A stretch of 41,194 nt of DNA from IMG/VR virus record IMGVR_UViG_3300022745_000073, positions 1 through 41,194 of that record. One strand, given 5' to 3'. Made by a program: the position numbers and the translations under genes. This DNA comes from a virus. This document shows, piece by piece, positions 19,865 to 29,170 of the stretch. Numbering within the stretch: the stretch's first letter is position 1; every line of letters begins with the position of its first letter. The notes beneath the pieces are model-generated. The model made no database searches, had not been told where the DNA came from, and worked only from the letters and a program-made list of their open reading frames with translations.

Positions 19865-20506
19865 CTACACTGCGTTGATTATGTCGAGCAACTTCGTTGC
19901 TCCGTAGTACTGAATGGTACTATTCACATCGTGGCCGGGGGGCAACGACACGCGGACAGCGTTCGGTAGAACCTCCACTAGTTTCTTTGCCAGATCTTGG
20001 CCGGGATTTGTCCCGTCCTCTTTGATGTCGTTGTCTGTGCAGATGATGACTCTGTCGATGCCGTCGAAGCAGCGACCGAAGTGAGGCTTCCACGCGTTCA
20101 CTCCGGCCACCGCAACGGCTGGCACACCACACATCGTGGCGGCGATGGCATCGAGTTCCCCCTCGACGATCGCCACCCGATCGACTGCGTCGAGCACAGC
20201 CTGCGTGTTGTACAAGTAGTGGCGCTGGCCAGTCGGGATCAGGTACTTGCGATCCGACTCGCCAAGCCTGCGGAACTTGAATGCGACCACGCCCGATGGG
20301 CGCAGGTATGGGATGGAGAGCATGCCCTTGAACATCTCATCGTGCCCAGCCGAAGGCGTGGCCACGTATCCAAGGCGGAACTGCTCCGCCGCCTGAGCCA
20401 GCCCGCGCGAGTGGAGGTACTCCTCGGCGGGCGAGCCAGCGAGCGACTCGTGATACTGAAGCGAGGCTTCAGTCCACAGGTTGATGAGGCTCAGGTTAGG
20501 TCGCAT
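19865..20506 (-). CDS. DNA primase, TOPRIM half (213 aa)
   Basis: The catalytic TOPRIM motifs are visible: VAIVEGELDA (E115 as the catalytic acid) and IICTDND followed by NPGQDLAKKL (D158, D160). The N-terminal block (AEEYLHSRGLAQAAEQFRLG, FKFRRLGESDRKYL) matches the DnaG-type region preceding TOPRIM. The zinc-binding domain is on the preceding ORF, 3 bp upstream, so primase is divided into two polypeptides. Primes lagging-strand or origin DNA synthesis together with the helicase at 23500-24327. Confidence 0.88.
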   Translation of the reverse strand: MRPNLSLINLWTEASLQYHESLAGSPAEEYLHSRGLAQAAEQFRLGYVATPSAGHDEMFKGMLSIPYLRPSGVVAFKFRRLGESDRKYLIPTGQRHYLYNTQAVLDAVDRVAIVEGELDAIAATMCGVPAVAVAGVNAWKPHFGRCFDGIDRVIICTDNDIKEDGTNPGQDLAKKLVEVLPNAVRVSLPPGHDVNSTIQYYGATKLLDIINAV

Positions 20507-20509
20507 TCC

Positions 20510-20845
20510 TTAGTCCTTGCGTAGTCTTGGTGGTACCCACCGACGCGACGAGCGTACTCGAACGTTGACTCGATGAGTTTGAACAGCGTCCACCATCCCC
20601 ATGCTATCGAGGAAGACGAGCGCTTGCTTGAAGGTGAGTGCTTCTCGAGCCATGACAACATGTACCGCGCTCCCACCAGCCCCGCACGCGTGACAATGCC
20701 ATAGACCCTTCTCGATATTGACTGACGCACTCGCGTGCGCATCATCGTGAACCGGACACTGCATTGACGCTTCCCTTCCGCCACGGAACGAGACTCCGTA
20801 GTGGTCAAGGACAGCAGCGAGATCATGCCGTTGATCGTCATGCAT
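20510..20845 (-). CDS. DNA primase, zinc-binding half (111 aa)
   Basis: A CHC2-type zinc ribbon is clear: CPVHDDAHASASVN and WHCHACGAGGSA, after YGVSFRGGREAS. I set the start at ATG 20845, where TGATG joins it to the stop of the transglycosylase frame; a longer version from 20887 would overlap more. The C-terminal tail is Arg-rich. It and the TOPRIM gene together make up a DnaG-like primase, a layout found in some actinophages. The zinc domain recognises template. Confidence 0.85.
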   Translation of the reverse strand: MHDDQRHDLAAVLDHYGVSFRGGREASMQCPVHDDAHASASVNIEKGLWHCHACGAGGSAVHVVMAREALTFKQALVFLDSMGMVDAVQTHRVNVRVRSSRRWVPPRLRKD

Positions 20846-21270
20846 CAGTACCAACCGTGCTTCTCTGAGTGCGCCCATGCTGCGCAAGGGCGCGAGTATC
20901 TGTGCTCAATGTACCGTAGTCCGATCTGGATTTGCCGACGAGGATCTCGCGTCTTCATACCGAGCAACTGCGGGATACCGAATGCTGAACTCGTGGGATT
21001 TTTTGCTGTAGTCGACCAGCCGCTCTCGCGCTCCCAGAGCAACCTCAAGCACTGGAACTCTGCGATCCCCCATCCGTACTGAGCCAGCGTATAGGAGCGG
21101 GCGTACGACCGACTGGCCCTCGGCGTTGATCTCAGAAAGGAAGAGGAGTGGGCCGAGTGTCTGAGGGACACGGCCCGCTCGCCAGTCAGCAAAGTCGGAG
21201 CACTGGCAGCGGTTGTTGATAATGTCGTCGCCGCACACAATGCACATGCTAATCGCGCGAGCCATCTCAT
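20845..21270 (-). CDS. Transglycosylase-like lysozyme domain protein (141 aa)
   Basis: Residues 62-141 match phage and actinobacterial lytic transglycosylase/Rpf-like domains: YGWGIAEFQCLRLLWERESG with catalytic Glu82, NPTSSAFGIPQ, QIQIGLRYIEHRYSRPCAAW and AHSEKHGWY. It cleaves glycan strands of peptidoglycan. ATG 21270 has GAGGTGA six bases upstream and the first 24 residues (MRWLARLACALCAATTLSTT AASA) could be a signal peptide, but residues 25-60 look non-native and are in conflict with a Cys-rich ORF in the other frame. The stop joins primase by TGATG. It is in the early operon rather than the lysis cassette. Confidence 0.75.
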   Translation of the reverse strand: MRWLARLACALCAATTLSTTAASAPTLLTGERAVSLRHSAHSSSFLRSTPRASRSYARSYTLAQYGWGIAEFQCLRLLWERESGWSTTAKNPTSSAFGIPQLLGMKTRDPRRQIQIGLRYIEHRYSRPCAAWAHSEKHGWY

Positions 21271-21277
21271 CGGTCAT
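20906..21277 (-). CDS. Overlapping Cys-rich ORF (123 aa, C-terminal half uncertain)
   Basis: ATG 21277 (or GTG 21280) begins MTDEMARAISMCIVCGDDII with Cys12, Cys15, Cys24 and Cys26, a zinc-knuckle arrangement. GC at third positions is high for roughly the first 70 codons and then falls just where the transglycosylase frame (+1 relative) gains it, at the G-run near 21065-21072. So either two genes overlap by over 300 bp, or ribosomes or a sequencing error move from this frame into the transglycosylase. The downstream half of this ORF may therefore not be real. Confidence 0.5.
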   Translation of the reverse strand: MTDEMARAISMCIVCGDDIINNRCQCSDFADWRAGRVPQTLGPLLFLSEINAEGQSVVRPLLYAGSVRMGDRRVPVLEVALGARERLVDYSKKSHEFSIRYPAVARYEDARSSSANPDRTTVH

Positions 21278-21281
21278 CACC

Positions 21282-21620
21282 TCAGTACCCTGCCATCTTC
21301 ATCAACTTGACCCACTGCGCAACGGGCAGGACTGCGTAGTGCTCGCCCACATCGGTGGTGCCGCGCTTCTTCGCGATCACCACACCAGTGTCGGCGTTTG
21401 CGTTGTACATCTCGACCTCCAGTTCCTTGAGGTATGCGGAGAAGCGAAGTGACTTCTCGTTCTTGGCCTCGATGACGCAGCCAATTATCCCGTAGATGTC
21501 ACCCTTGTCAAGCGTCGCTCCAGCGATGCGTCGCTCCGCGTGGATCCAGCCATTGGCGACGAGGTACTTGGCGATGTCGAGTTCGTACTTGGATCCCTTC
21601 GCTTTCTGTGGTGTCGTCAT
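21282..21620 (-). CDS. Holliday junction resolvase-like nuclease (112 aa)
   Basis: The Hjc/VRR-type restriction-fold signature is present: KGSKYELDIAKYLVANGWIH (Glu), ERRIAGATLDKGDI (Asp) and CVIEAKN (Glu-x-Lys). The length fits archaeal-type Hjc and phage relatives, which resolve four-way junctions before packaging. Start ATG 21620 overlaps the upstream stop (ATGA). A near-consensus promoter lies inside the gene at 21484-21511. Confidence 0.85.
   Translation of the reverse strand: MTTPQKAKGSKYELDIAKYLVANGWIHAERRIAGATLDKGDIYGIIGCVIEAKNEKSLRFSAYLKELEVEMYNANADTGVVIAKKRGTTDVGEHYAVLPVAQWVKLMKMAGY
21484..21511 (-). promoter_or_regulatory. Candidate internal promoter within the resolvase gene
   Basis: On the minus strand TTGACA (21511-21506), a 16-base spacer and GATAAT (21489-21484, 5/6 match) have the same 16-base spacing as the early promoter at 25.9 kb. 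It would start near 21477 and drive the transglycosylase/primase group. It lies in coding sequence (DKGDI), so chance is possible. Confidence 0.4.
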
Positions 21621-21880
21621 TCCGATTCCTCTTTCGCGTCTGGGGTTTTGCCCGTGTTGGGCGATGCGGGAATATGCCCGCCGCTATTCCTGTATAGGGT
21701 GAGGTTGTCGTCTGAACCCCTACCCTTTTGTGCCCCCGGCGCAGCCCGAACCCCTACCCTTTTGTGCTCACCCTCCCCACGGACAGCGCAGCGGGCACAT
21801 AGCGGCGCTCCGAACAATCCACAGAACAGCCCTTGCCAGAATCGGATGCGGCGATTGCACAACAAGCACTTACCTCTCAT
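21617..21880 (-). CDS. Zinc-ribbon-like protein with repeat-derived tail (87 aa)
   Basis: ATG 21880 overlaps the upstream stop. The N-terminus MRGKCLLCNRRIRFWQGLFC ... LCARC contains paired cysteines and a hydrophobic stretch. It then runs through the AVRGEGE peptide encoded by the repeated cassette, and through two copies of a 20-bp repeat (21714-21733 and 21748-21767) that, being 34 bp apart, are read in different frames. The tail therefore appears assembled from repeats. The stop overlaps the resolvase ATG. Function is unknown. Confidence 0.65.
   Translation of the reverse strand: MRGKCLLCNRRIRFWQGLFCGLFGAPLCARCAVRGEGEHKRVGVRAAPGAQKGRGSDDNLTLYRNSGGHIPASPNTGKTPDAKEESE
21714..21767. repeat. 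Pair of perfect 20-bp direct repeats
   Basis: GAACCCCTACCCTTTTGTGC occurs at 21714-21733 and again at 21748-21767, separated by 14 bases. The second copy runs directly into a copy of the repeated Shine-Dalgarno cassette (21767-21787). The 34-bp period breaks the reading frame between copies. Confidence 0.9.
21767..21787 (-). repeat. Repeated SD/AVRGEGE cassette, copy 1 (one mismatch)
   Basis: This 21-bp element matches 22352-22372 and 22594-22614 apart from one base. Read on the minus strand it encodes AVRGEGE and carries a purine-rich GGGGAGGGTGAG. Here it is internal to a gene and no start codon follows. Confidence 0.85.
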
Positions 21881-22347
21881 ACCCGCTCACCTTCCCTGCG
21901 AATGGCGGCGATGGCGATGGTGACTACCTCAGCGGCGCAGCAGTCGCACTCGTCCTCTGGCAGCGCGTCATCCCAATGCTCGTGCAATTTCAATGACATG
22001 CGATGTTCGGCAGCCTTGACCCACTCTGCCGCCTCATCTAGCACTTCTCCACGGATAGCGTCGGCAACATCTTCGGCGTACTGCACAAACGTGCGATCAG
22101 TAGTTGGCGGCTCGGCGATGCGCGAGTGCGCTACAACAATTTCAAGCGCACTCATCCATCCCGCGTTGTATGACGCCGCGAGCGAAACGCCATACTTGCC
22201 CAGCACTTCCTTGTCGTGTGCGGCAAGCCAACGGTCGAACTCTTCCGCAACGGCTTGGTAGTCTCTTCCGGTGCAACCGCACACTGACTCATGGAACGCG
22301 AGAGAATCGCGCACTACGTATGTGGTCGGCGTGTACGGTTCAGTCAT
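21877..22347 (-). CDS. Repeat-family early protein (156 aa)
   Basis: ATG 22347 (MTEPYTPTTYVVRDSLAFHE) lies five bases after GGAAGGTGAG, supplied by a copy of the repeated cassette. The opening MTE(P)YTPT and the segment AEEFDRWLAAHDKEV resemble the gene at 22591-22845, so the two are probably paralogues. A helical middle and a CDCC motif near the end (PEDECDCCAAEVV) precede the C-terminal IAAIRREGERV, a diverged version of the AVRGEGE ending. Function is unknown; similar small-gene families are frequent in actinophage early regions. Confidence 0.8.
   Translation of the reverse strand: MTEPYTPTTYVVRDSLAFHESVCGCTGRDYQAVAEEFDRWLAAHDKEVLGKYGVSLAASYNAGWMSALEIVVAHSRIAEPPTTDRTFVQYAEDVADAIRGEVLDEAAEWVKAAEHRMSLKLHEHWDDALPEDECDCCAAEVVTIAIAAIRREGERV
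21886..21915 (-). repeat. Diverged copy of the SD/AVRGEGE cassette
   Basis: This copy shares CTCACCTTCCC and the trailing GGCGATGGC with the others but has changed in the middle. It encodes AAIRREGE and supplies the GGAAGGTGAG ribosome site six bases before ATG 21880. Confidence 0.65.
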
Positions 22348-22591
22348 TGCTCTCACCTTCCCCACGGACAGCAGCGAGAGCATCATCAATCGCGGTGTCG
22401 TACCCGTCAGCCGCCCCACTGCATTCGTAGCAGTGCTCGTACAAGGCCCAGCCGTTCTCGTCTTTCTTGGCTGATGCGCGGAGCGCAGCCACCGTGCTCA
22501 GCACCCTCCGCCGTTCGTCTGCGCGGGCCGATGCGATAACAGCGCATTGGCACATCCAGCCGTCGTACTCGCAGAACTTGTCGTGTTCCAT
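22340..22591 (-). CDS. Repeat-family early protein with Cys motifs (83 aa)
   Basis: ATG 22591 joins the upstream stop as TGATG; the ribosome site comes from a cassette copy. Residues include CEYDGWMCQC and YEHCYECSG, a possible zinc site. The C-terminus ALAAVRGEGESND is the conserved cassette-encoded tail, which also provides the site for the next gene. No known function. Confidence 0.75.
   Translation of the reverse strand: MEHDKFCEYDGWMCQCAVIASARADERRRVLSTVAALRASAKKDENGWALYEHCYECSGAADGYDTAIDDALAAVRGEGESND
22352..22372 (-). repeat. Repeated SD/AVRGEGE cassette, copy 2
   Basis: Identical over 21 bp to 22594-22614. On the minus strand it ends with GGGGAAGGTGAG five bases before ATG 22347 while encoding AVRGEGE as the tail of the upstream gene. 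Confidence 0.9.
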
Positions 22592-22845
22592 CACTCACCT
22601 TCCCCACGGACAGCGGCGATGGCTTCAAGCGTGGGGATGCTGCATTCCTCGAAGTCACAGCCCGTGCCCTTCGAGCACGGGACGCACTCCAAGCGATCCA
22701 CCGCTTCGTCTATCACGTCCAACTCGTATGCGGCAAGGAACCGTTCGGCTTCCTCCATCGCCTTTACGTCAGCGACATCGAACAGTCGCCGATACATGAC
22801 CCATGCAGCACTAATCTCCCGCACGGTTGGCGTGTACTCGGTCAC
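22591..22845 (-). CDS. Repeat-family early protein (84 aa)
   Basis: MTEYTPTVREISAAWVMYRR resembles the N-terminus of the 156-residue gene two positions downstream (MTEPYTPTT, EEFDRWLAAH versus EAERFLAAYE), indicating duplication. A Cys pair (CVPCSKGTGCDFEEC) follows and the protein ends AIAAVRGEGE from the cassette. ATG 22845 overlaps the preceding stop. Function is unknown. Confidence 0.8.
   Translation of the reverse strand: MTEYTPTVREISAAWVMYRRLFDVADVKAMEEAERFLAAYELDVIDEAVDRLECVPCSKGTGCDFEECSIPTLEAIAAVRGEGE
22594..22614 (-). repeat. Repeated SD/AVRGEGE cassette, copy 3
   Basis: Identical over 21 bp to 22352-22372. It encodes the last residues (AVRGEGE) of the gene ending at 22591 and places GGGGAAGGTGAG directly before the TGATG junction. 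Confidence 0.9.
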
Positions 22846-28279: not shown

Positions 28280-28486
28280 TCAGCCTTCCGTGGAACCCAC
28301 GCCGTAGTTCTTGGTCAGCGTCGTCCAGTTGAGCGAGGCCCACGCCACGAGTGCGCCAGCCATAGCGATGATGTAGTCAGGTGCCGGGAGTTCGACGACG
28401 GAGTCCGCCGCCCAACCGAAGAGCGCAGAGACGAGCATGATCGTGAGTTCGCGTACCTTCTGGGGCAAGCGGTCGAGCAGGTTCAT
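28280..28486 (-). CDS. Holin (68 aa)
   Basis: Two hydrophobic segments (TIMLVSALFGWAADSVV and YIIAMAGALVAWASLNW) separated by a short loop, short charged N- and C-termini and a position straight after the endolysin fit a class II holin, which forms inner-membrane pores at lysis. The start overlaps the endolysin stop by four bases. Confidence 0.8.
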   Translation of the reverse strand: MNLLDRLPQKVRELTIMLVSALFGWAADSVVELPAPDYIIAMAGALVAWASLNWTTLTKNYGVGSTEG

Positions 28487-28911
28487 GAGAGTTCCTTGAT
28501 CAATCCGAAGGGTGCGGCACTGGTGTCCGCCTTGATGGTGAAGGAGATGTGGATGTGGTGCATGTGCGGATCACCGACGTGCTTCCGCCACTGCCACGCC
28601 TTGCCCTTGAGGTTGCGCCTCGGGCTTGCTATCTGGCCCATGTGGATGAGGTACGCGATGCGTCCATCCGTGGCTGCGATCTTGCGGATCGCATCTGCCA
28701 GTTGCCATGAGGCACGCTGGTTCGCGGGATCCAGATCACGGTCGATATCGATCGCGTGAACCACACCGCGCTTGTCGGGGATATGGTCAGAGATCCCACC
28801 GGATACGTGGCGAGCGTCGGCAACCCATCCGTCGCTCTGCTTGTCGCGCTTGGGGTAGAGCGCGTCGACTTCTGACCGAAGGCGCACCGCGCCTGATGCA
28901 AGAGTTGCCAT
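28483..28911 (-). CDS. Endolysin, M15-like zinc peptidase (142 aa)
   Basis: The zinc motifs are visible: SDHIPDKRGVVHAIDID (H43, H52, D55) and DPHMHHIHISF (H119, H121). These belong to D-Ala-D-Ala carboxypeptidase or L-Ala-D-Glu endopeptidase types that cut peptide stems of peptidoglycan. No cell-wall-binding domain is fused; a separate binding protein is at 26195. ATG 28911 starts one base after the previous stop. The longer start (28926) would overlap the upstream gene. Confidence 0.85.
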   Translation of the reverse strand: MATLASGAVRLRSEVDALYPKRDKQSDGWVADARHVSGGISDHIPDKRGVVHAIDIDRDLDPANQRASWQLADAIRKIAATDGRIAYLIHMGQIASPRRNLKGKAWQWRKHVGDPHMHHIHISFTIKADTSAAPFGLIKELS

Positions 28912-28912
28912 G

Positions 28913-29170
28913 TCATCCCTGTCCAAAGATGCGGTCTACGCCGACGCTGACTGCGGCGGCGAGAAAGGAAGCGATACCCGACGCCTTCCATACGAGGCGC
29001 TCGAGGTTACGGATGCGTCCCTCGTGATCATCCAGCCACTGGTCGTGGGCTGTGTGTCGTGAAGCGAGGGTGTCTAGTCGCGAGTGCATCGATCCCATAA
29101 CCTTCTCTTGGTCGACCAGTTTGTCGTACACGTCGCGGATCGTTACCGTGAAGCCGATCTCAGTGGACAT
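28913..29170 (-). CDS. Coiled-coil/single-TM protein, probable lysis accessory (85 aa)
   Basis: Residues 10-60 are a charged coiled coil (LVDQEKVMGSMHSRLDTLAS, HEGRIRNLERLVWK) and residues 63-80 one hydrophobic span (ASGIASFLAAAVSVGVD). This resembles XhlA-like holin accessories. It directly precedes the endolysin and is coupled to the upstream gene by an ATGA overlap. A virion anchoring role is also possible. Confidence 0.65.
   Translation of the reverse strand: MSTEIGFTVTIRDVYDKLVDQEKVMGSMHSRLDTLASRHTAHDQWLDDHEGRIRNLERLVWKASGIASFLAAAVSVGVDRIFGQG

Follow-up and report, generated by a model that had tools for sequence, protein, structure and literature searches.

The leviviral lysis gene L is a third-frame gene spanning two of its neighbours. 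In phage lambda, the spanin genes Rz and Rz1 are lysis genes that overlap out of frame and have independent starts (PMC5295617, PMC6139136). The transglycosylases of the Streptomyces phages Endor1, phiCAM, Muntaha and Yosif (PHROG 15428 and 12661) share the C-terminal domain of the enzyme described below and an N-terminal signal or membrane segment, but they are encoded by stand-alone genes with no comparable overlap. A close system is found in freshwater phages (loci L002, L003 and L067–L146) that have core genes in common with the phage analysed here, and in which the signal peptide and linker of a homologous enzyme are also read in a second frame, as a nested ORF that we call ORF1. Gene callers tend to retain a single frame, and for this reason long out-of-frame overlaps of this kind often go unnoticed in tailed phages.

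Here we describe an overlapping pair of frames, ORF A and ORF B, in the 41,194-nt IMG/VR record IMGVR_UViG_3300022745_000073 (the window), derived from an uncultured phage. The lambda Rz/Rz1 pair differs from A/B in consisting of other proteins, which act in outer-membrane disruption, and in showing no homology. The leviviral L gene belongs to an RNA phage, likewise without homology, and its likeness is to ORF1 of the relatives, which spans a membrane ORF and the transglycosylase gene, not to the window. The freshwater-phage overlap has the same relative frame as A/B, but ORF1 is unrelated to A, is preceded by a tiny membrane ORF and is conserved in many genomes.

Two minus-strand frames between the RusA and primase genes

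ORF A, ORF B, the features within them and the two flanking genes lie on the minus strand of the window. ORF A, a Cys-rich frame of 124 codons, runs from GTG at 21280 to the TGA at 20906 (20906–21280), with alternative starts at ATG 21277 and ATG 21265 (119 aa). ORF B, a 141-aa predicted secreted lytic transglycosylase, extends from ATG 21270 to the TGA at 20845 (20845–21270) in the +1 frame of A. Both frames are open, as the original prediction described; each has a separate start, and they have 365 nt in common out of frame. Upstream lies a RusA-like Holliday junction resolvase gene (21282–21620; PHROG 244, E = 1.2e-21) and downstream a primase CHC2 zinc-ribbon ORF (20510–20845), the start of which is coupled to the stop of B (TGATG).

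A Shine-Dalgarno-like GAGGTG (21278–21283) overlaps the RusA stop codon and is placed 7 nt before ATG 21270, so that the reported start of B, with its own well-spaced ribosome-binding site and signal-peptide-like beginning, was borne out. This is the best-spaced site of the two frames; for A the spacing is poor, as GAGGTG touches ATG 21277 and lies 12 nt from ATG 21265. Residues 1–24 of B (MRWLARLACALCAATTLSTTAASA; 21199–21270) resemble a signal peptide, and the same DNA codes for the CxxC...CxC motif near the start of A (CIVCGDDIINNRCQC; 21200–21244), which had also been noted correctly.

The primase of the window is split, its zinc-ribbon and Toprim parts being separate ORFs at 20510–20845 and 19865–20506; the two ORFs overlap one another in the relatives L017, L019 and L020.

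Homology of ORF B to phage transglycosylases

In a profile search, residues 40/45–141 of B matched PHROG 15428 (E = 8e-24) and PHROG 12661 (E = 1.7e-20), confirming the transglycosylase domain suspected from the sequence; the Pfam SLT profile gave only 0.018 against B, under the cut-off. The domain and its leading helix occupy about residues 55–141 (20845–21108). By tblastn, 274 phage records matched B, mostly actinobacteriophages. Its closest homologues among viral contigs (45–57% identity) are complete 144-aa proteins with a signal peptide, and the small relatives generally are complete proteins of 133–149 aa that carry a signal or membrane segment at the N terminus. The ATG of B, which lies no more than a few codons away from the point where the relatives begin, its Shine-Dalgarno site, its signal-peptide-like start and its length all agree with these relatives. 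Alignment revealed the catalytic-region motif ESxW...GIPQ and the C-terminal GWY in B, with E82, S83, W85, G98, Q101, Q113, Y120, G139 and Y141 invariant across 10 aligned sequences. Sequence comparison thus gives good support to B as a complete, predicted secreted transglycosylase.

The coding signal had been proposed to move by +1 at a G-run spanning 21065–21072. The run in fact consists of five G residues (21067–21071), and homology in frame B is continuous on either side of it: upstream, SRSYARSYTLAQYGWG aligns with SKAYARSYILTQYPSW of L081 and SKSYAKAVISAQYETWG of L002, and SYARSYTLAQYGW also belongs to this homologous part. This continuity refutes both a frameshift and a missing base at the G-run. 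No homologue of A was found in the collections searched.

In favour of two overlapping genes, none of 98 natural +1 shadows contained a signal peptide as good as that of B; if A alone were real, synonymous recoding of A would produce one in 4.7% of cases (14.5% under a looser definition). With such a peptide arising in about 5% (or 15%) of recodings, the start of B could be due to chance.

Codon signal and the proposed origin of the overlap

To locate the coding signal, we used a codon model trained on the window's own genes. Over codons 1–62, A was gene-like (synonymous z = −0.42) and B shadow-like (z = −5.87), in agreement with the shadow-like look reported for the early residues of B; past codon 62 the order flipped (A, −6.7; B, about −3.5). 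The best change point was 21107, with positions 21113–21083 lying within 3.3 bits, which places the switch from A to B (21083–21113) upstream of the G-run. The coding-like part of A, originally put at about 70 codons, covers codons 1 to about 58–62, and the C-terminal half of A is not codon-adapted. For the segment preceding the domain, the score of the transglycosylase frame minus that of the −1 frame was −43.6 in the window, an extreme outlier relative to 35 transglycosylase homologues from bacterial genomes (mean +36.5, minimum −15.7) and an outlier also relative to 22 further transglycosylases in which no overlap was called. Overprinting is expected to leave typical codon usage in the older frame and atypical usage in the newer one (PMC3744397). 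Over its first ~60 codons, A is probably real and the older of the two frames.

We consider it somewhat probable that A and B are two out-of-frame overlapping genes, with the signal peptide and linker of B overprinted on A; of the three options offered originally, this long overlap is the best supported. Translation of B would begin at ATG 21270, served by a separate Shine-Dalgarno site, and the enzyme would be exported by its signal peptide and cut peptidoglycan; A would be a small Cys-rich protein started by coupled re-initiation just past the RusA stop or from ATG 21265. Most likely, a transglycosylase domain was brought up against the 3′ end region of a pre-existing A gene, the signal peptide and linker of B were recruited from the +1 frame of A, and A was then left to continue as a shadow of B until it meets a stop. 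The relatives' phages have terminase, RusA, primase, DUF932-like and RecA-like genes in common with the window, and the position of the transglycosylase gene varies among them: it lies between RusA and primase in the window, between the terminase and the DUF932-like gene in relatives, and adjoining a RecA-like gene in L018 and L019. With the gene having moved, it is plausible that it acquired a different upstream neighbour and thereby a new junction. Precedent comes from the related phages, where ORF1 and the transglycosylase overlap with the same frame relation.

If this is true, a working secretion signal arose inside the frame of another gene. We propose more tentatively, at slightly below even odds, the combined view that the signal peptide of B arose when the +1 frame of an unrelated Cys-rich gene was overprinted, the same ~70 nt encoding a secretion signal as well as a Cys cluster, and that, taken together with the conserved nest of the related phages, the N-terminal segment of the transglycosylase gene is a repeated place for new overlapping genes. 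The conserved ORF1 nest of the relatives points to tolerance of dual coding in the variable signal-peptide and linker region of lysis enzymes.

The single sharp point at which A hands the coding signal over to B, together with the pure shadow look of the first 60 codons of B, would also result if one gene, combining a Cys-rich N terminus with a transglycosylase, had been split by an indel at about 21113–21083, either an assembly error or a recent mutation, the start of B then being fortuitous. Repairing such a split would yield a fusion with no signal peptide, unlike every relative examined; we found no fusion of this kind among the relatives, the small ones having a signal or membrane segment of their own, and the position of B's ATG near the relatives' start, its best-spaced Shine-Dalgarno site and the exclusion of the G-run itself as the site of the lesion all weigh against an indel, which is the leading alternative but one that we regard as unlikely.

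We find it unlikely that B is the only gene and A an accidental frame, whose codon and Cys signals would reflect an Ala/Thr/Ser-rich signal peptide and linker read out of frame. The openness of A alone was not significant, a frame of at least 120 codons having a 16% chance given the residues of B and one of at least 60 codons a 41% chance, and A has no homologues. In the −1 frame, a Cys codon results when a T-ending codon precedes Ala or Val, and a comparable shadow containing Cys is present in L018. With the residues of B fixed, the codon signal of A had a probability of 0.064 under the usage of the second half of B, which favours this reading, and of 0.003 under phage codon usage, which speaks against it. 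Also against it, the probability of the Cys cluster (at least four Cys within 16 residues, with B fixed) was 0.020, and in 0 of the 35 bacterial-genome homologues did the −1 frame outscore the transglycosylase frame by nearly as much.

A programmed +1 frameshift joining A to B fits the +1 relation of the frames and the direction in which the coding signal passes, but is very improbable, because A stays open through the switch with no stop in its frame there, a slippery site with a zero-frame stop or slow codon is missing from the switch, the G-run lies downstream of where the homology of B begins, B has a start of its own, and in relatives a stop codon is usually found immediately ahead of the transglycosylase ATG, in the enzyme's frame, and precludes entry from upstream. 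Classical +1 frameshift sites carry a zero-frame stop at the shift.

Under the favoured reading of two overlapping genes, A lacks a detectable homologue and is therefore not proven. No close relative of the window turned up in the collections searched, and a literature search returned nothing on this gene pair. The designation of A as a zinc knuckle was not supported: no family, profile or homologue backs it, and only the motif is present. We rejected several candidate relatives. The ORF1 profile gave no match in the window, and a match of A to Pseudomonas phage Y5 (E = 0.2) did not keep the Cys pattern in the alignment. In relatives without ORF1 (L081, L088, L102, L132 and L140), a small protein with CxxCG...CxC lies upstream of the transglycosylase instead; two profiles of such proteins failed to recover A, which has only the CxxCG...CxC pattern and its position in common with them, so that the tie is a lead only.

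These small proteins form an acidic Cys-containing family (MSEP...CxxCG...CxC) directly upstream of the transglycosylase in relatives (L081:279–458, L088:4718–4852, L102:1–123, L132:4681–4833, L140:1182–1427, L013:3860–3988 and L105:4611–4757), at a distance of 9 nt in L132 and L140. Separately, a second Cys-containing −1-frame ORF of 64 aa occurs within the signal-peptide part of the transglycosylase in L018 (1787–1981), a phage with a RusA 71% identical to that of the window. Its frame is open with P = 0.023 given the enzyme's residues; it is dissimilar to A, and the search for its relatives found none, so we did not accept it as a homologue of A.

The ORF1 nest in related phages

A profile scan yielded 80 loci of relatives. 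In 64 loci of the surveyed set (48 distinct sequences in 11 clusters at 85% DNA identity), ORF1 (89–100 aa) overlaps the first 179–215 nt of the transglycosylase gene with the frame relation that A has to B, beginning 88–91 nt before that gene and ending about 200 nt into it (for example L085:4775–5062, L002:1400–1687, L067:2856–3143, L121:2148–2450 and L141:2680–2973). ORF1 is contained wholly, in the third frame, within the transglycosylase gene and a preceding ORF of 31–34 aa with a single membrane segment, which its first 88 nt also overlap. In 57 loci the end of this membrane ORF and the start of the transglycosylase share an ATGA. Tiny ORFs of this type, of 28–34 aa and often with the ATGA overlap, lie directly before the transglycosylase in L085 (4771–4866), L134 (4753–4854), L141 (2676–2774), L101 (4898–4984) and L081 (471–575), and may encode a holin-like partner. 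Most loci have a stop directly before the transglycosylase ATG and GGAG upstream, indicating that the relatives' enzyme starts on its own and not via frameshifting. The window has neither ORF1 nor a membrane ORF preceding B.

Of 51 unique main-type loci, 49 retain an uninterrupted ORF1 frame, against a chance of ~9% per sequence calculated from transglycosylase residues and codon usage. It has been lost while the transglycosylase and membrane ORF remain intact through stops in L108/L109 (L108:1304–1591, L109:4775–5062) and L125, and through a 1-nt frame shift in L077. Changes that would stop ORF1 while being synonymous in the transglycosylase had an observed/expected ratio of 0.02 in the middle of the overlap and 2.28 after it, an effect inflated by the choice of representatives with ORF1 open. 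Where ORF1 and the membrane ORF overlap, synonymous differences per codon were 0.070 in the membrane-ORF frame and 0.067 in the ORF1 frame versus 0.290 in the transglycosylase past the overlap; these are effect sizes and not P values, since the pairwise counts are not independent. The synonymous sites of the membrane ORF are about fourfold constrained, and a low synonymous difference in both frames is as expected if both are constrained. These data show selection on both frames for ORF1 in the relatives. A structured RNA as the cause of the conservation before the transglycosylase start was rejected, as the consensus fold was weak and only 2 of 20 pairs had changed on both sides.

ORF1 had no match in Pfam, PHROG or cultured phages, and its predicted fold is of low confidence (pLDDT 60), so we assign it no function. 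It represents a conserved, previously unannotated gene family in the relatives, and the nest of ORF1, membrane ORF and transglycosylase is a stronger discovery than the overlap in the window itself.

Two further observations concern the window outside this locus. At 28483–28926, inspection by eye revealed a candidate second cell-wall enzyme, a peptidase of the D-Ala-D-Ala carboxypeptidase type, so the transglycosylase may not be the sole lysin. At 21877–22845, three consecutive small ORFs end in similar C-terminal peptides (AIAAIRREGERV, ALAAVRGEGESND and AIAAVRGEGE), a resemblance that suggests tandem paralogues or a repeated module end.
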